A stretch of DNA of 62,691 bases, taken from positions 1 to 62,691 of the forward strand of contig NZ_VWPY01000023.1 of assembly GCF_011839805.1 (NCBI RefSeq), in the 5' to 3' direction. The notes beneath the pieces were generated by a model, which saw only the letters and a list, made by a program, of their open reading frames with translations, was not told the origin of the DNA and made no database searches. The DNA comes from Kineococcus rubinsiae (lineage in GTDB: Bacteria > Actinomycetota > Actinomycetes > Actinomycetales > Kineococcaceae). Positions 1,026-30,474 of the stretch are shown here, in pieces (positions within the stretch are counted from its first letter, which is position 1; each line of letters opens with the position of its first letter). Position numbers and translations under genes: made by a program.

Positions 1026-1709
1026 GTGCCCTCCCCCGCCGTCCGCGTCCTGCTCGTCGAGGACGACCCCCTGATCCGGGACTCCACGGCCTCGACGCTG
1101 CGCGCAGCGGGGATGCTCGTGGAGGCCCGGGCTGACGGCGGCGAGCTGCCCGCGGTCCTCGACGCGTTCCGCCCGGACATCGCCGTCCTCGACGTCATGC
1201 TCCCGGGCGAGGACGGCCTCTCGCTCGCGCGCCGCTGCTGCGCCCCGCGCGACGTCCCGGTCGTCTTCGTCACGGCCCGCGACGCGGTCCCCGACCGGCT
1301 CGCGGGGTTCCACGCCGGCGCCGACGACTACCTCGTGAAGCCGTTCGCGGTCGAGGAGCTGCTCGTGCGGCTGCGGGCCGTGCTGCGCCGCAGCGGGCGC
1401 ACGGCCCAGGTCGTCGAGGTGGGCGACCTCGTCGTCGACGAGTCGGCCGGGCTGGCCGTGCGCGCGGGCGTCGCCCTGGAGCTGACCGCGACGGAGTTCC
1501 GGCTGCTGACCCAGCTCGCGCGCCACCGCGGGCGGGTGCTGTCCAAGGTGCAGCTGCTGACCCAGGTGTGGGGCTACGACGACTACGACACCAACCTCGT
1601 CGAGGTCCACGTGAGCGCGCTGCGGCGCAAGCTCGAGGAGCACGGCCCACGCCTGGTGCACACCGTGCGCGGCCTCGGCTACGTCCTGCGGCCCGGGAAC
1701 GGCCGGTGA
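1026..1709 (+). CDS. OmpR-family two-component response regulator
   Basis: The 227-residue DNA-binding regulator has a receiver domain at residues 6-120, with acidic pair Asp13/Asp14, phospho-acceptor Asp56 (VLDVMLPGEDG), Thr83 and Lys105 (DYLVKPF). A winged-helix effector domain follows (about 130-225; LTATEFRLL, HVSALRRKL, VRGLGYVL). The length is standard. The GTG start at 1026 has no Shine-Dalgarno but has GATGCT six bases upstream, consistent with a leaderless transcript. The kinase gene overlaps its end (GTGA), so the two are one operon. The target is unknown; the divergent secreted repeat protein is the obvious candidate. Confidence 0.95.
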   Translation: MPSPAVRVLLVEDDPLIRDSTASTLRAAGMLVEARADGGELPAVLDAFRPDIAVLDVMLPGEDGLSLARRCCAPRDVPVVFVTARDAVPDRLAGFHAGADDYLVKPFAVEELLVRLRAVLRRSGRTAQVVEVGDLVVDESAGLAVRAGVALELTATEFRLLTQLARHRGRVLSKVQLLTQVWGYDDYDTNLVEVHVSALRRKLEEHGPRLVHTVRGLGYVLRPGNGR

Positions 1710-3124
1710 GGACCGTCTCCCTGCGCCGGCGGGTCGTGCTCAGCGCGATCGCCGTGCTGGCCCTGCTGCTCGTCGCGGTCGGCGTCTTCGTCGACCTGAG
1801 CCTGGGGGCGCGGCTGCGCTCCGACGCCGAGGGGCGCCTGCGCCAGCTCACCGCGCTCGCGGTCCAGCTCGACGGCACCGTCGACGCCCAGACCCTGGCC
1901 GACCGCCTCACCACGGCGGGTGCGCTGGCGACGCTGGACACCTCCAGCGGCACGGTCGTGGGGCGCCCCGGCCCGCCACCGGGCCCCGGGACGGCCCCCG
2001 CGCCGCGGCCGGCCCCGACCGCCGCCGCGGCCGCCCCCGTCACGGTGCGCCGAGCGGGCGACGACCTCGTCGCCCGGCAGGAGCTGGCCGGCGGCGACGT
2101 CCTGGAGCTGTCCACGAGCCTGGCCCCCGTCCAGGAGGCGCTGGACCGCTTCCGCGTCCTCATGACCACGGGCAGCCTCGCGGGGCTGCTGCTCGCCGCG
2201 GTCGTCCTGCACCTGCTGCTCGGGCGGGCCCTGCGCCCGCTGGACACCATGACGGCGACGGCGCGCTCCATCGCGGGCGGCGACCGCGGGCGGCGGCTGT
2301 CGCCGGACCGCCAGGACACCGAGCTCGGTCGGGCGGCGACGGCCTTCGACGCCATGCTCGAGGACCTCGAGGGCGCCGAGCGCCAGGCCACCGACGCGCG
2401 GGACCGCCTGCAGCAGTTCCTCTCCGACGCCGCGCACGAGCTGCGGACCCCGCTCGCGGGGGTCACGGCGGCCGCGGAGGAGCTGCTGCTCGACACCTCC
2501 GCCGCGGAGGACGGCAGCGACGGGGGCGCGCTGCGGGAGCGGCGCGAGCGCTCGGCGGTCCGGATCGTGCGCGAGGCCCGGCGCGCCTCGCGCCTGGTCA
2601 CCGACCTGCTGACGGCGTCGAGGCTGGAGGAGGTCGCGGCCCAGCTCGCGCCCGTCGACGTCGGGGCGCTGGTCCGGGGCGTGCTGGACGCGTCCCCGTC
2701 GGCCGGCGCGGGCCGCGTCGAGGTCGCCGCCGCGGCCGGCGCCATCGCCGTCGCCGACGCCGACGCCGGGCACGTGCGGCAGGTCGTCGAGAACCTCGTG
2801 GGCAACGCCCTGCGCGCGGCCGGCACGGGCCGGGTGCGCGTCGAGGTGGCACGGCCCGCGGTGGGCGGGGCGCGCGTCGTGGTCAGCGACGACGGCCCGG
2901 GGGTGCCGCCCGCGGAGCGCGAGCGCGTCTTCGACCGGCTCGTGCGCCTGGACCCCGCCCGCGGCGACGGCGGGGCGGGTCTGGGCCTGTCGATCGCGCG
3001 CGGCCTCGCCGAGGCCGGCGGGGGGCACCTGCGCTGCGCGGCACCGGGAGAGCCCGGTCTGCCCACCGGCACCCTGCCGGGGGCCGTCTTCGTCCTCGAC
3101 CTGCCCGTGCCGCCGGGCGCCTGA
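1706..3124 (+). CDS. Sensor histidine kinase of the adjacent two-component system
   Basis: I start this 472-residue kinase at GTG 1706, which overlaps the regulator's stop by 4 bp. The reading frame is open further upstream, but that region is the coding sequence of the regulator. Domains in order: TM1 (about residues 9-29), an extracytoplasmic region of about 120 residues with a Pro/Ala-rich stretch, TM2 (about 155-175), HAMP, HisKA with phospho-acceptor His244 (AAHELRTPL), and HATPase_c with N box ([12 protein letters not shown]), G1 (DDGPGVP) and G2 ([13 protein letters not shown]). It autophosphorylates and phosphorylates Asp56 of the upstream regulator. The signal is unknown. Confidence 0.94.
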
Positions 3125-3185
3125 GCCGCCGGCGGCCCGCGCGAGCCGTCGTCCCGGGTCGGCGCGCGGTGGCAGACTCCGCCCC

Positions 3186-3857
3186 GTGAGCACCGATCCC
3201 ACCCGATGGACCCGCGCCGACGTCGCCCGCCTCGTCGACCACACGCTGCTGAAGCCCGAGGCCACCGCCGCCGACGTCGTCGCCCTGTGCGACGAGGCCC
3301 GCGCGCTCGGCGTCCTCGCCGTCTGCGTCTCGCCCTCGATGCTGCCCGTGGCGGGCGACGGCCTCGTCGTCGCGACCGTCTGCGGGTTCCCCTCGGGCAA
3401 GCACACGAGCGCGACGAAGGCCGCCGAGGCCGCGGCCGCGGTCGCCGCCGGGGCGCACGAGGTCGACATGGTCATCGACGTCGGCGCGGCCCTCGCCCGC
3501 GAGTTCGACGCCGTGCAGGCCGACATCGCCGCCGTGCGCACCGCGGTGCCCGCGCCGGGCGTGCTGAAGGTCATCGTGGAGTCCGCGGCCCTGCCCGACG
3601 ACGTCCTCGTCGCCGTGTGCCAGGCCGCCGAGGCCGCGGGCGCCGACTTCGTCAAGACCTCGACGGGTTTCCACCCCACCGGCGGCGCGAGCACCCACGC
3701 GGTGGAGCTCATGGCGCGCACGGTCGGCGGGCGCCTCGGCGTCAAGGCCAGCGGCGGGATCCGCAGCACCGAGGCGGCGCTGGCGATGCTGGACGCGGGC
3801 GCGACGCGCCTGGGCCTGTCCGGGACGGCGGCCGTCCTGGCCGGCCTGCCCGGCTGA
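3186..3857 (+). CDS. deoC: Deoxyribose-phosphate aldolase
   Basis: This cytosolic class I aldolase splits 2-deoxy-D-ribose 5-phosphate into glyceraldehyde 3-phosphate and acetaldehyde in deoxynucleoside salvage. The 223-residue length is typical. The Schiff-base lysine is Lys157 (DFVKTSTGF) and the second conserved lysine is Lys187 ([10 protein letters not shown]); the N-terminal [10 protein letters not shown] motif is present. It starts at GTG 3186. It stands as a short gene before the HAD phosphatase, with about 56 bp between them, so co-transcription is possible. No other deoxynucleoside catabolic gene (deoA, deoD, cdd) is adjacent. Confidence 0.97.
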
Positions 3858-3913
3858 GCCCGACGACCGCAGGAACAGCACGGGCAGCGGACGAGACGAC
3901 GGGAGTGGGCGGC

Positions 3914-4693
3914 GTGCAGGACGAGCACGAGATCGAGTGCTGGCTGACGGACATGGACGGGGTCCTCGTCCACGAGGAGCGCGCCCTGCCCGGCGCCGCG
4001 GAGTTCCTGGCCCGGCTGGTCGACACCGGCCGCCGGTTCCTGGTGCTGACCAACAACTCGATCTTCACCCCGCGCGACCTGGCCGCGCGCCTCACGCGCA
4101 GCGGCCTGAACGTCCCCGAGGAGTCGATCTGGACGTCCGCGATGGCGACGGCCGACTTCCTCGCGCGGCAGATGCCGCAGGGTTCCGCCTACGTCATCGG
4201 GGAGTCCGGCCTCACGACCGCGCTGCACGAGGCGGGCTTCGTGCTGACGGACACCGAACCCGACTACGTCGTGCTCGGTGAGACGCGCACGTACTCCTTC
4301 GAGGCGATCACCCGGGCGATCCGGCTCGTGGAGAAGGGGGCCAGGTTCATCGCGACGAACCCCGACGCCACCGGCCCCTCCGCGGAGGGGTCGCTGCCGG
4401 CGACGGGGTCCGTCGCGGCGCTCATCACGCGGGCCACGGGTGCCGAACCGTACTTCGTGGGCAAGCCGAACCCGATGATGTTCCGCTCGGCCATGAACCG
4501 CATCGAGGCCCACTCCGAGACGACCGCGATGATCGGCGACCGGATGGACACCGACGTCGTCGCCGGCATCGAGGCCGGGCTGCGGACGTTCCTCGTCCTG
4601 ACCGGCTCCACGAAGGCCGACCAGGTCGAGCGGTTCCCGTTCCGGCCGCACCGCGTCGTCGACTCGATCGGCTCGCTCGTCGACCTCGTCTGA
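3914..4693 (+). CDS. NagD/PgpP-type HAD-IIA sugar phosphatase
   Basis: The product is 259 residues from GTG 3914, chosen because GGGAG lies eight bases upstream; GTG 3905 is an alternative. Motifs are those of HAD class IIA phosphatases: DMDGVLVHEE (nucleophile and acid/base Asp), LTNNS (motif II), a C2 cap, GKPNPMMF (motif III Lys) and IGDRMDTD (motif IV). Family members dephosphorylate small sugar phosphates or nucleotides in the cytosol; the substrate cannot be read from sequence. It follows deoC on the same strand and converges with the TPR gene, whose end lies 14 bp away. Confidence 0.92.
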   Translation: MQDEHEIECWLTDMDGVLVHEERALPGAAEFLARLVDTGRRFLVLTNNSIFTPRDLAARLTRSGLNVPEESIWTSAMATADFLARQMPQGSAYVIGESGLTTALHEAGFVLTDTEPDYVVLGETRTYSFEAITRAIRLVEKGARFIATNPDATGPSAEGSLPATGSVAALITRATGAEPYFVGKPNPMMFRSAMNRIEAHSETTAMIGDRMDTDVVAGIEAGLRTFLVLTGSTKADQVERFPFRPHRVVDSIGSLVDLV

Positions 4694-11398: not shown

Positions 11399-13693
11399 GT
11401 GCGATTGGCTGAGCAGCTCGACGGCAAGCGGTTCCTCCTGACGGGGGTCACCGGGTTCATCGGCGAGGCGCTCATGCAGCGCCTGCTCGTGGACCTGCCG
11501 GGCACCAGCGTGGTCGCGCTGGTCCGGCCCAAGCCCGGGCAGAGCGGTGAGGACCGGCTGCGCTCGGTCCTGCGCAAGGGGATCTTCCACGCCGCGGGCG
11601 ACGCCGACTCCCTGCTCGCCACACGCGTCGAGGCCCTCGAGGGCGACCTGGCCGCGGTGCCGGAGCTGCCCGCGGGCATCGACGTGGTCGTCCACTGCGC
11701 CGGTGACGTGTCCTTCGACCCGAAGATCCAGGACGCCTTCACGACCAACGTCGTCGGCACCCGCCTGCTCGTCGAGCGGACGCTGGCCGCGGCGGAGGCC
11801 GAGGGCCGCGCGATCCACTACGTGCACATCTCCACGGCCTACGTCGGCGGCCGCCGCCGGGGCGCGGTCCCCGAGCGGGCCGTGGACCACACCGTCGACT
11901 GGCGCACCGAGACCGAGGCCGGCCTGCGCCTGGCCGCGCGCATCGAGGAGGACTCCCGCCTGGACGCCCAGCTGCGCCGCTTCCTGCGCGCCGCCGAGCG
12001 CGACCACGGCCGGGCGGGCCCGCTGAGCGTGGCCGCCGGCGCCGAGGAGCGGCGCCAGCAGTGGGTCGCGGAGCAGCAGAAGGCGGCCGGCAAGGAGCGC
12101 GGGCGCACGCTGGGCTGGACCGACTGCTACACGTTCACGAAGTCGATGGGCGAGCGCGCCGTGGAGGAGCTGTCGGCGCCGTTCATCCCGACGACGATCC
12201 TGCGCCCGAGCATCGTGGAGTCGGCCCTCAAGCACCCGCACCCGGGGTGGATCGAGGGCTTCAAGATGGCCGAGCCGATCATCCTGGCCTACGGGCGCGG
12301 GGAGCTGACCGAGTTCCCGGCCGCCCCCGACTCGGTCGTCGACATCGTCCCCATCGACCACGTCGTCAACGCGATCCTCAAGGCCTCGGCCACCCCGCCG
12401 CCGCTGTCGCAGCCCGCCTACTACCACGTGTCGTCGGGCAACCGGAACCCCGCGACCTTCCGGGACCTCTACGAGCACGTGCGGGCGTACTTCACCGACC
12501 ACCCCTTCGACTCCTCCCCCGAGGTCCTGCCGACGTGGGACTTCCCCGGTGTCGACAAGGTGGAGCGGCAGGTGCGCACCGGTGAGCGCCTGGCCCGGAT
12601 CGGGGACCGCGTGCTGGCCCTGGCCCCGCGCTCGGAGCGGGTGCGCTCGGCCTCGCGCCGCATCGACAAGGCCCGCGACCAGGTCGAGTTCGCCCGCCGC
12701 TACATGGACCTGTACCGCGCCTACACCGAGGCCGAGCTGCGCCTCGTCGACGACAACACGCTGGCGCTGCACCGCTCGCTGGACCCGGCCGACGTCGACC
12801 TCTTCGGCTTCGACACCGCCGTCGTGGACTGGACGGAGTACTTCGAGAAGACGCACTGCCCGTCGGTCACGACGCAGATGCGCAAGTACGAGGAGATCCG
12901 CCGCCGCCGCAAGCAGACCGAGGTCACCGGCCCGCGCACGCTGCGGCCCGTCGCCGAGGGCGCCGCCCCGGTCCTGGCCGTCTTCGACCTCGCGGGCACG
13001 CTCATGCCCGGCACCGTCGTCGACACCTACCTCGCGCTGCGGCTGTCCGAGCTCGACGCCCCTGCCCGCGTCCGCGAGTTCGCGCGCATCGTGCGGCACC
13101 TGCCGGGCTGGATCGCCGCCGAGCGCCGCGACCGCGGCAGCTTCCTGCGGTCGCTCTTCCGGGGCTACGCGGGGGCCGACCTCGACGCGCTGGAGGCCTA
13201 CGTCGACGACGTGTTCGCGCCGGGCTTCCTGGAGCAGGTCAGCTCCGACGCGCTGCGCCGCATCCAGGCCCACCGCGACGCGGGGCACCGCACCGTGCTC
13301 ATGACCGGCGACGTGCGGATGGTGACCCGGCCGCTGTCGGCGCTGTTCGACGAGATCGTCTGCACGGACCTCGACGAGGAGCTCGACGCCGAGGGCCACC
13401 GCCGCGCCAGCGGCTTCCTCACCTCGCCCCCGCTGGTCGGCGAGGCCCGCGCGGCCTGGGTGCGCCGCTACGCCGAGGTGGAGGGGGCGGACCTGGCGGC
13501 GAGCTACGCCTACGCCGACTCCCACTCGGACCTGCCGCTGCTGAAGACGGTCGGCAACCCCACGGCCGTCTCCCCCGACGTCCCGCTGTTCCGCGCGGCG
13601 CGGGCCGCGCGCTGGCCCGTGGCCGACTGGGCCGCGAGCTCGGCGACGTTCCGGCTGCGCCTGCCGCAGCAGGTGCTCGCGGGCACCGACTGA
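11399..13693 (+). CDS. Fatty acyl-CoA reductase-like (NAD_binding_4) / HAD-IB fusion protein
   Basis: The 764-residue two-domain protein has an N-terminal 'male sterility' SDR domain with TGVTGFIG nucleotide motif (residues 17-24), long insertions and YTFTK active site (Tyr244, Lys248). A reductase-type C-terminal segment follows (about 370-500), then an HAD-IB domain from about 525 (FDLAGTL, Asp530; ADSHSDLPLL motif IV). The HAD acid/base Asp is Ala532 and the usual GEGK lysine is absent (GEAR), so phosphatase activity is doubtful. It is followed by a PlsC acyltransferase gene, suggesting long-chain lipid or wax/phospholipid synthesis. Starts at GTG 11399. Confidence 0.88.
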   Translation: MRLAEQLDGKRFLLTGVTGFIGEALMQRLLVDLPGTSVVALVRPKPGQSGEDRLRSVLRKGIFHAAGDADSLLATRVEALEGDLAAVPELPAGIDVVVHCAGDVSFDPKIQDAFTTNVVGTRLLVERTLAAAEAEGRAIHYVHISTAYVGGRRRGAVPERAVDHTVDWRTETEAGLRLAARIEEDSRLDAQLRRFLRAAERDHGRAGPLSVAAGAEERRQQWVAEQQKAAGKERGRTLGWTDCYTFTKSMGERAVEELSAPFIPTTILRPSIVESALKHPHPGWIEGFKMAEPIILAYGRGELTEFPAAPDSVVDIVPIDHVVNAILKASATPPPLSQPAYYHVSSGNRNPATFRDLYEHVRAYFTDHPFDSSPEVLPTWDFPGVDKVERQVRTGERLARIGDRVLALAPRSERVRSASRRIDKARDQVEFARRYMDLYRAYTEAELRLVDDNTLALHRSLDPADVDLFGFDTAVVDWTEYFEKTHCPSVTTQMRKYEEIRRRRKQTEVTGPRTLRPVAEGAAPVLAVFDLAGTLMPGTVVDTYLALRLSELDAPARVREFARIVRHLPGWIAAERRDRGSFLRSLFRGYAGADLDALEAYVDDVFAPGFLEQVSSDALRRIQAHRDAGHRTVLMTGDVRMVTRPLSALFDEIVCTDLDEELDAEGHRRASGFLTSPPLVGEARAAWVRRYAEVEGADLAASYAYADSHSDLPLLKTVGNPTAVSPDVPLFRAARAARWPVADWAASSATFRLRLPQQVLAGTD

Positions 13694-26236: not shown

Positions 26237-27358
26237 CTACGGGGAGGTGCGGCCGACCGCGTGGACGGCGACGGCCGTCGCCTTGACCACGAGGTGCACG
26301 GGCGAGCCCGCGACGAGGTCGAGGTCGGCGACCGAGGACGCCGTCACGTCGGCCAGCACCTCCTCCCCACCGGGCAGCAGCCGGGCCCGCACGCGCACGA
26401 GGGCGCCGCGCGACGCCGGCTCGCGGGAGGTCAGGTCCTCCACGACGGCGGCCCACCGGTTGCGGGGGCTGCCGCCGGGGTCGTCGCGGTGCACGGCGAC
26501 CGCGGCCGGGCTGAAGGTGGCGACCGCGGCGTCGCCCGGGGCGCAGTCGGGGTCGCGCAGGCCCGCGAGCGCCGTGCCCCCGGCCGTGCGCAGGCCGTCC
26601 GCGGTGGCGGTCCCCGCGAGCAGGTCGAGCCCCGCGATCCGGGCGCCGAACGCGCTGCGGGGCGAGGCGAGCACGTCGGCGACGGGCCCCTCCTCCACGA
26701 CCCGGCCGCCGTCCAGGACGACGACGCGGTCGGCCAGCGCCAGGGCGTCGAGGAGGTCGTGCGTGACGAGCACGGCGCTGCGCCGCTGCTCCCCGCGCAG
26801 CACCTGCCGCAGGACGCGGCGGACCTCGGGCGCCGCGCCGACGTCGAGGGCGGCCAGCGGCTCGTCGAGCAGGAGCAGCCGCGGGTCGGCCGCGAGCGCC
26901 CGCGCGACCGCGATGCGCTGGGCCTGGCCGCCGGAGACCTCGTGCGGGCGCCGCCGCGCCAGGTCGGCGGCACCGACGACGTCGAGCCAGTGCCGCGCGG
27001 CGGCCCGCGCGTCCCGCCGAGAGGCGCCCGCGCTGCGCGGGCCGAAGGCCACGTTGGCCTCGACGCGCAGGTGCGGGAAGAGCAGCGGCTGCTGCGCGAG
27101 CAGGGCCGTGCCGCGCCGGTGCGGCGGGGTGGGCCGGTGGCGGCCGTCGGCGAGGACCTCCCCGTCCAGCACGATGCGCCCGCCCGTGGGGCTCAGCAGG
27201 CCCGCGAGCAGGGACAGCACCGTCGACTTCCCGGCGCCGTTGGGCCCCAGCACCGCGAGGACCTCGCCGGGCGCGAGCCGCAGGTCCGCCGCGAGGTCGC
27301 GCGGGGCGTGGCGCAGCTCGGCGACGAGGCCGTCGGCCGGGCCGTCCGCGGGGCCCAC
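26237..27358 (-). CDS. modC: Molybdate ABC transporter ATPase with C-terminal MOP domain
   Basis: The 373-residue protein has Walker A GPNGAGKS, signature VSGGQAQRIA, Walker B LLLLDEPLAALD and a switch His (VTHDLLDAL), then a TOBE/MOP-type domain (about residues 290-365) that binds molybdate. It energises molybdate import through ModB. GTG 27358 starts one base after the modB stop, so it is the last gene of the regulator-modA-modB-modC operon. The N-terminus before Walker A is somewhat short. Confidence 0.95.
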   Translation of the reverse strand: MGPADGPADGLVAELRHAPRDLAADLRLAPGEVLAVLGPNGAGKSTVLSLLAGLLSPTGGRIVLDGEVLADGRHRPTPPHRRGTALLAQQPLLFPHLRVEANVAFGPRSAGASRRDARAAARHWLDVVGAADLARRRPHEVSGGQAQRIAVARALAADPRLLLLDEPLAALDVGAAPEVRRVLRQVLRGEQRRSAVLVTHDLLDALALADRVVVLDGGRVVEEGPVADVLASPRSAFGARIAGLDLLAGTATADGLRTAGGTALAGLRDPDCAPGDAAVATFSPAAVAVHRDDPGGSPRNRWAAVVEDLTSREPASRGALVRVRARLLPGGEEVLADVTASSVADLDLVAGSPVHLVVKATAVAVHAVGRTSP

Positions 27359-27359
27359 C

Positions 27360-28169
27360 TCAGCGCGCCCCGGCGCCGCGGCGGCCGTGGACGGCCACGA
27401 CGACGACGGCCGCGACGACCACCAGCACCAGCGCCAGCGCGACGGCCGCGTCGGGGTCGGTCTCGCGCTGCAGGTAGATCTCCAGCGGCAGGGTGCGGGT
27501 GGTGCCCTGCAGGCTGCCCGCGACGGTGAGCGTGGCCCCGAACTCCCCGAGCGAGCGGGCGAAGGCCAGCACGGCCCCGGACACGAGCCCGGGCAGCACC
27601 AGCGGCAGCGTCACGCGCAGCAGGACCCGCGACGGCGCCGCCCCCAGCGACGCCGCGACCGCCTCGTAGCGCCGCCCCGCCGTGCGCAGCGCCCCCTCCA
27701 GGCTGACGACGAGGAAGGGCAGGGACACGAAGGTCTGCGCGAGCACCACCGACGCCGTCGTGAAGGCCACCCGGATCCCCGCGGCCTCCAGCGCCGGCCC
27801 GAACAGCCCCTGCCGCCCGACGGCGTAGAGGAGGGCGAGGCCGCCGACGACGGGCGGCAGCACCAGCGGCAGGAGCACCACGGCCCGCAGCACCCGCAGC
27901 CCCGGCAGGGCGGAGCGGGCCAGCACGAGCGCCAGCGGGACCCCGACCACGATGCAGCAGGCCGTGCTCGCACCGGCCGTGCGCAGGCTGAGCCGCAGCG
28001 CGGCCACCGACGACGCCGACGTGACGAGCGCCGGGAACCGCACCCAGTCCACCCGCGCGACGATCGCGGCGAGCGGGACCGCGACGAGGAGCACCCCCAG
28101 CGCCGCCGGGACGAACACCCACCGGGGCAGGGCGCTGCCCTCGCCGCCCGCGGCCCGGGCGGCCCTCAC
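27360..28169 (-). CDS. modB: Molybdate ABC transporter permease
   Basis: The 269-residue protein starts at GTG 28169, overlapping the modA stop by 4 bp. It has about six membrane helices and the EAA-type loop [21 protein letters not shown] that contacts ModC. It carries molybdate, and possibly tungstate, across the membrane with ModA and ModC. A longer open frame upstream is antisense or shadow to modA. Confidence 0.95.
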
Positions 28170-28963
28170 GCCGGCGGCTCGCCGAACCCCGCGGCCGCGA
28201 GCACGGCCCGGCCGTCGGCGGACGTCACGAAGTCCCGGAACGCCGCGGCGTCCGCGGCGTGCTCGGAGTTCGACAGCGCCGCGATCGGGTAGGTGTTCAC
28301 GGCGCCCGCGGACTCCGGGAACGGCACCCCCGTCACGGCCGCGCCCGCGGCCCGGACGTCGGTGGCGTAGACGAGGCCCGCGTCGGCCTCGCCCGAGGTG
28401 ACCTTGCCGAGGACGTCGGTCACGGAGGACTCCTCGCTGACCGGGGTGAGGGTCGTGCCGGTGGCCGCCTCCGCCTTCACCGCCGCTGCCCCGCAGGGCA
28501 CCTGGGGCGCGCACACGACGACGTCGAGGCCCGGCCGGGCCAGGTCGGCGAAGGACGCGACGCGGGCCGGGTTCCCCGGCGGGGTGGCGATCTCGAGGAC
28601 GTTGGTCGCGAAGTCCACGGCCCGGCCGGCGATCAGCTCCTGCTCGAGGACCTTCGCCATGTTCGCCTCGTCGGCCGAGGCGAACACGTCCGCGGGGGCG
28701 CCGGCCACGATCTGCGACACCAGGTCGGAGGACCCCGCGAAGCTGAACGCCACCGTCGTGCCGGGGTGGCGGGCCTCGAACGCGGCGCCCAGCTCGGTGA
28801 AGCTGGTGCGCAGCGACGCCGCCGCGAAGACCGTGATCGTCAGGGGTGCCGCGGAGGACGACGCCGAGGACGCGGCCGACGGCCCGGCGGCCGAGGGGCC
28901 CGCGCCGCACCCCGCCAGCAGCAGAACCGCCACCACCGGCAGGGCCGCGGCCCGCCGCCTCAC
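28166..28963 (-). CDS. modA: Molybdate-binding lipoprotein
   Basis: The 265-residue product starts at GTG 28963, overlapping the regulator's stop. It has a lipobox (LLLAGCG) with lipidated Cys after a short signal, then a periplasmic-binding fold with [25 protein letters not shown] and [14 protein letters not shown], characteristic ModA motifs for oxyanion binding. The protein is anchored outside the membrane and hands molybdate to ModB/ModC. Confidence 0.95.
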
Positions 28964-29370
28964 GCGCGGTCCCCGGCGGGCGTCTCGACGATCACCGAGG
29001 TCGCCTTCACCACGGCGACGGCGCGGCGGCCGGGCACGAGCCCGAGCTCGGTGGCGGCCTCGCTGCTCATGAGCGAGACGACGCGGTGCGGGCCGCACTG
29101 CAGCTCGACCTGGGCCATGACGCCGTCGGCGACGACGCGCGTGACCAGCCCGACGAAGCGGTTGCGGGCCGAGCGCCCCACGCCCGACGGGTCCGGCGCG
29201 GCCGCGGCCGCGTTCGAGACCGCGAAGGCCGCGAGGTCGGCACCGTCCACGACGAGCCGCCCCGCCTCGTCCTTGGTGGCCGGCAGCGTCCCGGCGTCGG
29301 TCCAGCGGCGGGCGGTGTCGTCGGAGACCCCGAGGAGCTCGGCGACCTCGCGGATCCGGTACAGCGGCAT
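28960..29370 (-). CDS. MerR-type HTH / TOBE regulator (candidate molybdate sensor)
   Basis: The 136-residue protein joins an N-terminal excisionase/MerR-like HTH ([27 protein letters not shown]) to a C-terminal TOBE/MOP domain (about residues 72-130) like those in ModE and ModC. It is the first gene of the operon and probably represses or tunes modABC in response to molybdate; it differs from E. coli ModE in its DNA-binding domain. The start at ATG 29370 is supported by TACGGT six bases upstream (leaderless pattern). Confidence 0.85.
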
Positions 29371-29386
29371 CCCAGCACCGTAACCG

Positions 29387-29431
29387 ACCGCAGGTGCGGA
29401 CGTCAGCGCTTCCCGCGACCGCACCTGCGGT
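29387..29431. promoter_or_regulatory. Two CCGCA-NN-TGCGG palindromes before the mod operon
   Basis: CCGCAGGTGCGG (29388-29399) and CCGCACCTGCGG (29419-29430) are each palindromic and also pair as a 13-bp inverted repeat. Centres are 31 bp apart (about three turns). The proximal one lies directly upstream of the TACGGT -10 of the regulator gene. They are candidate operators for the HTH/TOBE regulator; a terminator role for azlD cannot be excluded for the combined hairpin. Confidence 0.6.
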
Positions 29432-29440
29432 GGGTCCCGA

Positions 29441-29746
29441 TCAGCCCAGTCCGGCCGCCCGGAGCCCCGCGGCGGTCGCCGCCCCCAGCAGGACGACCAC
29501 GACGAAGGGCGCCCGCAGCAGCAGGGCGAGGGCCGCGACGGCCACCGCGCCGAGCCGGGCGTCCAGCACGAGCGCCCCGTCGCCGCCCACGGTCTGCACG
29601 ACGACGAGTGCCGCGAGGCAGCCCGCGGTGACGAGGTCGGTGGTCCGCCCGACGCGGGGGTCGGCGAGCACCGCGGCGGGCAGGAGGTAGCCGGCGAGCT
29701 TCAGCAGCAGGCAGGCCAGCGCCGACGCGACCAGCCAGCCGGTCAC
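29441..29746 (-). CDS. azlD: AzlD-family branched-chain amino acid exporter small subunit
   Basis: The 101-residue, almost fully hydrophobic protein has three to four membrane helices (ALACLLLKLAGYLLPAAVL; VTAGCLAALVVVQTV; APFVVVVLLGAATAAGL) and a PRVGRTTDL motif typical of AzlD. It pairs with AzlC to export branched-chain amino acids. GTG 29746 overlaps the downstream stop of the azlC frame (GTGA), so the two are translationally coupled, yet azlC is interrupted (see next entry). Confidence 0.85.
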   Translation of the reverse strand: MTGWLVASALACLLLKLAGYLLPAAVLADPRVGRTTDLVTAGCLAALVVVQTVGGDGALVLDARLGAVAVAALALLLRAPFVVVVLLGAATAAGLRAAGLG

Positions 29747-30474
29747 GGCGCCGCCCCGCGCGGGGGGCGGGTGCGCCACCAGCCCAGCGCCGCGGCCGCG
29801 ACGGCCGCGGCGAGGACGGGGACGCCCGCCGGGGCCACGGGCAGGACGAGCGCCGCGACCAGGGCCGCCACCGCGGCCACCGCGGCGGTCTCGCGCCGCC
29901 GCAGCCGCGGCCAGAGCAGCCCGAGGAACGCGGCGGCCGCCGCCCCGTCGAGGCCCCACCGCTGCGGGTCGCCCAGCGCACTGCCGAGCAGGGCGCCCGC
30001 GAGCGTGGCGACGTTCCAGAAGGCGAAGACCCCGGCGCCCGCGGCTCAGAAGCCGCGCCGCGCCTCGACCGGATCGCCCTGCGCGGCCGAGACGGCCGAG
30101 GACTCGTCGATGGTCAGGTGCGCGGCGAGCAGGCGCCGCCACCCGCGCAGGCCGAGGCGCGGGGCGAGCTGCAGGCCGTAGACCGCGTTGCGCAGCCCGA
30201 GCAGCGTCGCCGACGCGAACCCCGCGACGGGCGCCCCGCCCGCGGCGAGGACCCCGACGACCGCGAACTGCGAGCCGCCCGTGAACATCACGAGGCTGAG
30301 CAGGCAGGCCTGCACCACGCCGAGCCCCGCCGCCGTCGCCAGCGCCCCGAAGGACAGGCCGTAGAGGCCGGTGGCGAGGCCGACCGAGACGCCCTGCCGG
30401 ACGGCGGGCGAGCGCAGCAGAGCGCTCCGGGCCCTCCCGCCGGGCACGCCCGCGGCGGGCTCGTCGGTCGACAC
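29743..30474 (-). pseudogene. azlC: azlC interrupted by an in-frame TGA
   Basis: The azlC-type frame from 30474 encodes 142 residues of the exporter large subunit (VGLATGLYGLSFGALATAAGL; ATLLGLRNAVYGLQLAP; HLTIDESSAV) and stops at TGA 30048-30046. The same frame stays open to 29743 and encodes the rest of AzlC (GVFAFWNVATLAGALLG, DPQRWGLDGAAAAAFLGLLWPRL). The full frame would give 243 residues, the family norm, and overlaps azlD by 4 bp. The stop sits after RRGF, where homologues commonly have Trp (TGG). Nonsense mutation or sequence error are the options. Confidence 0.9.

Follow-up and report, generated by a model that had tools for sequence, protein, structure and literature searches.

The counterpart of AzlC/AzlD in E. 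coli is YgaZH. This E. coli system is stated to export valine and methionine (PMC10963904). According to a second study (PMC7918605), in-frame stops in bacterial genes whose dN/dS stays below 1 are widespread but tend to persist only briefly in evolutionary terms; that study was limited to stops common to two or more species as a guard against artefacts. The locus described here belongs to Kineococcus rubinsiae and lies in a window (the whole stretch of DNA that was analysed, 62,691 nucleotides of contig NZ_VWPY01000023.1) of a 4.88 Mb draft genome in 119 contigs. Its azlC reading frame is cut by one in-frame TGA, and we evaluate below whether this codon is likely to have inactivated the gene, to be an error, or to be translated.

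Gene layout of the azlCD locus

The features discussed in the text are the following:

30049..30474, minus strand: first 142 codons of azlC, from a GTG start at 30474 (Pfam AzlC, E = 3.6e-26; residues 19-142 are 89% identical to those of K. siccus R8)
30046..30048, minus strand: in-frame TGA at a conserved Trp site of azlC, identified by codon comparison with relatives
29743..30045, minus strand: remaining 100 codons of azlC and its normal TGA (82% identity to K. siccus over 100 amino acids)
29441..29746, minus strand: azlD, intact, with a GTG start that overlaps the azlC stop (Pfam AzlD, E = 9.7e-07, searched from 29743)

The whole azlC frame runs from 30474 to 29743 on the minus strand and has a single internal TGA at 30048-30046. 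When re-read, it stops there after 142 residues just as a preliminary description of this DNA had claimed, and the GTGA overlap which that description gave for the end of azlC and azlD was found at the same coordinates (azlD GTG at 29746-29744, azlC TGA at 29745-29743), so that the azlD partner (PF05437) directly adjoins azlC. The amino-terminal half alone covers positions 2-104 of the 137 in the Pfam AzlC profile with 92.7 bits, and the carboxy-terminal half alone reached no Pfam family at E 0.001. In a six-frame profile search of the strain's own genome, AzlC (PF03591) was matched over positions 2-137 of 137 through the stop, flagged as '1 TGA', with a score of 108 bits versus a cut-off of 32.1. 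The carboxy-terminal half alone also matches nine of the ten congener copies by tblastn (E at most 3.02e-14), which upholds the earlier statement that 100 stop-free, AzlC-like codons follow the TGA; the tenth copy, L011, gave no tblastn match to either half. A run of 100 further in-frame codons homologous to AzlC is no chance event. The profile search of the own genome detected neither a second azlC nor a second azlD, the latter gene being single.

On the same strand, within 26237-29424, genes for an HTH plus TOBE-domain protein and for a solute-binding protein (SBP_bac_11), both assigned by Pfam, adjoin azlCD, and beyond the SBP_bac_11 gene there are open reading frames that resemble an ABC permease and ATPase by eye. 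This set of neighbours may be linked to molybdate.

The interrupted codon in relatives

The genus search covered 11 Kineococcus genomes, the window's own included, and AzlC was present in 10 of them, with two copies in one congener; the congener genome without an AzlC match (one of ten) is G010. At the site equivalent to the stop, TGG is found in all nine congener copies that could be placed (of ten, L011 being unmatched), and each of these nine is a single uninterrupted frame. The wider set consisted of 119 of 122 loci, after exclusion of L001 and L122 (the window's own) and of L032; the site is covered by the alignments of 108 of them, the remaining 11 being without a match, and the 108 include the nine congener copies and count K. 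siccus twice (L002 and L013). In this uneven sample, whose loci were chosen by similarity to the window azlC or as best-scoring matches of the order search, 94 of the 108 aligned loci carry TGG at the site and 14 have a sense codon for another residue (Phe in 6, Ile in 3, Arg in 2, Leu in 2 and Met in 1), with not one stop and not one Cys codon among them. The preliminary description had stated that homologues commonly have Trp here, and the congeners and the wider loci agree; among the loci aligned over the site, there was no relative whose azlC ends there.

Five alignments of the wider set contain stops elsewhere, at query residues 7, 15, 15, 15 and 237 of 243, and we read these as lying ahead of the genuine start codon or at the normal terminus. 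The order search gave no AzlC match in 64 of 396 genomes (55 of 379 when the more complete ones are considered), and among the matches listed a stop in AzlC occurs only in the strain's own genome (G000). As for the excluded L032, it is titled Vibrio cholerae strain 35D, stands among Arthrobacter loci and has 57% identity to the window AzlC; its title may be wrong or its contig foreign.

The nearest named relative found, by a search from which records of the own or very near genomes were possibly omitted, is Kineococcus siccus R8. A 10.4 kb stretch of K. siccus runs collinear with the window over about 8.3 kb, where the nucleotide identity is 83-86%. The strain came from a biocrust of the Tabernas Desert, and its genome is an Illumina MiSeq draft of 502 contigs (PMC7601052).

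Constraint on either side of the stop

The comparison with K. siccus showed no relaxation of constraint beyond the stop, dN/dS being 0.179 before it (118 codons) and 0.175 after it (100 codons). The raw dN is higher after the stop than before (0.116 and 0.067, respectively), as is dS (0.660 vs 0.376), and the after/before dN ratio of 1.72 falls inside the range of 0.69 to 2.87 given by pairs without the window. The 18 amino acid differences from K. siccus after the stop divide into 2 derived in the window, 6 derived in K. siccus and 10 unpolarised, and the 13 before it into 5, 2 and 6, respectively. Where the other eight copies are invariant, the 46 such columns after the stop show no window-only change and two K. 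siccus-only changes, and the 70 columns before it show three and one, respectively. An unconstrained carboxy-terminal half would be expected to have gained about 39 to 68 replacements on the window branch since the split, a crude estimate made from dS, versus at most 12 observed even when all 10 unpolarised differences are counted.

Given that the carboxy-terminal half is undecayed, the stop is either young relative to the split from K. siccus, or an error, or a codon that does not remove the protein. In the first case, it would have been present for only a minor fraction of the period since the two species separated. The absence of decay limits age and does not on its own decide function, and we therefore use the term recent nonsense allele for the azlC copy in preference to established pseudogene.

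Interpretation of the stop

The three options offered at the outset, namely that azlC is newly inactivated, that it is read through, or that the base call is wrong, are those left after testing, the word 'newly' being backed by the absent decay, and they are not further separable from sequence. We rank a nonsense allele above a base error, and the latter above useful readthrough, and this ranking is a judgement that was not computed. In our opinion, a recent nonsense substitution at a conserved Trp of the only detected azlC has probably inactivated AzlCD. With the base taken as real, a Trp codon would have been changed to TGA by a recent nonsense substitution, translation would normally end there by means of RF2, and the product would be a 142-residue fragment that lacks roughly the final quarter of the AzlC domain and all that follows it in the protein. 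The AzlC-AzlD amino-acid exporter would then be lost or nearly lost, both subunits presumably being needed for export. Termination about 300 bases upstream of the overlapping azlD start could also leave azlD poorly translated. Loss of amino-acid export appears the most likely outcome, and it is tolerable: azlC is dispensable, since neither the 64 genomes of the order mentioned above nor the congener G010 gave an AzlC match. Inactivation is also supported by the fact that no compensating azlC was detected in the own genome. The undecayed carboxy-terminal half counts against it, being equally expected under a wrong base or under readthrough.

The TGA could instead be a base-call or assembly error, azlC being intact in the living strain, which we consider unlikely although well worth keeping in mind, given that a single base is involved, that the downstream half is undecayed, that the assembly is a draft and that nothing in the data contradicts it. 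However, modern assemblies as a rule contain few substitution errors in their consensus, and the stretch is not visibly error-rich. When open reading frames of K. siccus were compared with the window, with matches taken at 55% identity or more, 5 of the 29 matched K. siccus frames were flagged for a stop, one of them azlC, and the other four had stops that, by eye, lie ahead of a conserved start codon or within shadow frames, two of these (K. siccus contig 1547-3985 and 12477-12818) being judged on their low-complexity look only. The reverse comparison flagged 3 of 27 matched window frames, and the frames with no match at 55%, which are thus uninformative, numbered 22 of 51 in K. siccus and 29 of 56 in the window. 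A scan of the window for stops flanked on either side by same-frame sequence of high GC3 returned 25 sites; going by codon-position composition, most of these resemble antisense shadow frames, and a few have the look of gene ends or of adjacent genes that share a frame, and we read azlC as the one among them that continues a single gene.

Useful readthrough, in which a near-cognate tRNA-Trp would decode the UGA and give a reduced supply of full-length AzlC, has in our view only a slim chance of being correct, and it is slightly more doubtful again that the ordinary tRNA-Trp reads UGA enough to keep AzlCD export going at a lowered, perhaps condition-dependent level. Such decoding by tRNA-Trp would make sense of the uninterrupted constraint downstream of the stop, and frequent readthrough of in-frame stops has been inferred for bacterial genes that keep dN/dS below 1 (PMC7918605). 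A very recent mutation, however, accounts for the persisting constraint equally well, and the stop is shared by none of the 108 aligned loci, which gives no sign of its being kept. The own genome has an intact RF2 gene with no internal stop, and the anticodons read in 51 tRNA matches plus the tRNA-Sec include a single tRNA-Trp gene with the ordinary CCA, TCA being seen only in the tRNA-Sec among the tRNAs found. TGA ends 49 of the 56 window open reading frames that have a coding signature, a set that includes the truncated azlC and in which 11 pairs have more than half the length of their shorter member in common, so that some are shadow frames; given that it ends 48 of the 55 frames other than azlC, TGA is an active stop codon in this genome. 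A genome-wide reassignment of UGA to Trp is contradicted by this stop usage, by the presence of RF2 and by the CCA anticodon of tRNA-Trp, and was rejected.

The tRNA matches also include two tRNA-Leu (TAA) of 55.9 bits each, about 2.2 kb apart on a 4.9 kb contig (L158, G000:C10:1680-4120), and a further tRNA-Leu (TAA) on C101 (L162).

It is very improbable that the two halves work as separate proteins, or that the 142-residue fragment works alone: the reading frame is indeed open on either side of the stop, but all nine placed congener copies are uninterrupted, and no ATG, GTG or TTG occurs in frame until codon 56 past the stop. Reinitiation and a split azlC were rejected on the lack of these start codons across the first 55 codons; CTG, which rarely serves as a start, first appears at codon 19 past the stop, and a restart of the carboxy-terminal half is unlikely.

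Selenocysteine at the UGA has next to no chance of being the answer. The genome does have a tRNA-Sec (69.5 bits, anticodon TCA; L170, G000:C1:100282-100373) and, about 3.6 kb from it, a SelB candidate (L182, G000:C1:95611-96648; 258.9 bits versus a cut-off of 242.25, a partial match over 2-342 of 581 positions), so that the strain may make selenoproteins, and the hairpin after the TGA agrees with a loose SECIS-like rule patterned on published bacterial ones. Within the window, however, that rule is also satisfied by 122 of 254 TGG codons and by 25 of 49 TGA stops (the azlC site being among the 49), the hairpin falls short of the average stability of its codon-shuffled controls (z 0.94), and a better fold is obtained at the equivalent place in the K. 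siccus copy, which bears TGG (z -2.11). Despite the tRNA-Sec and the SelB candidate, selenocysteine was therefore rejected on the unremarkable hairpin and on the lack of any Cys or TGA homologue among the 108 loci, where Trp predominates.

With the recent nonsense substitution retained as the preferred reading, annotation of this strain should record an interrupted azlC, the only copy detected, and AzlCD export should not be presumed in its metabolic reconstructions. If full-length AzlC is made after all, the locus would provide a clean example, confined to one site, of a tolerated UGA in a high-GC actinobacterium.

Comparison with known systems

A stop such as this one in azlC is nothing out of the ordinary and of a familiar kind, and it adds one more candidate from one draft genome. 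Literature searches that were not aimed at this azlC stop gave no publication title on it, which does not imply its absence from print. Compared with the in-frame stops of PMC7918605, the azlC stop differs in having no second genome that shares it and would fail the filter applied there; it resembles them in that azlC likewise combines a single in-frame stop with a dN/dS that stays under 1. With regard to the AzlC/AzlD (YgaZ/YgaH) branched-chain exporter, the pair in the window is alike in its two families (PF03591 and PF05437), in the adjacency of the genes and in their stop/start overlap, and it is unlike that exporter in that its azlC is interrupted once, by a TGA at a conserved Trp.
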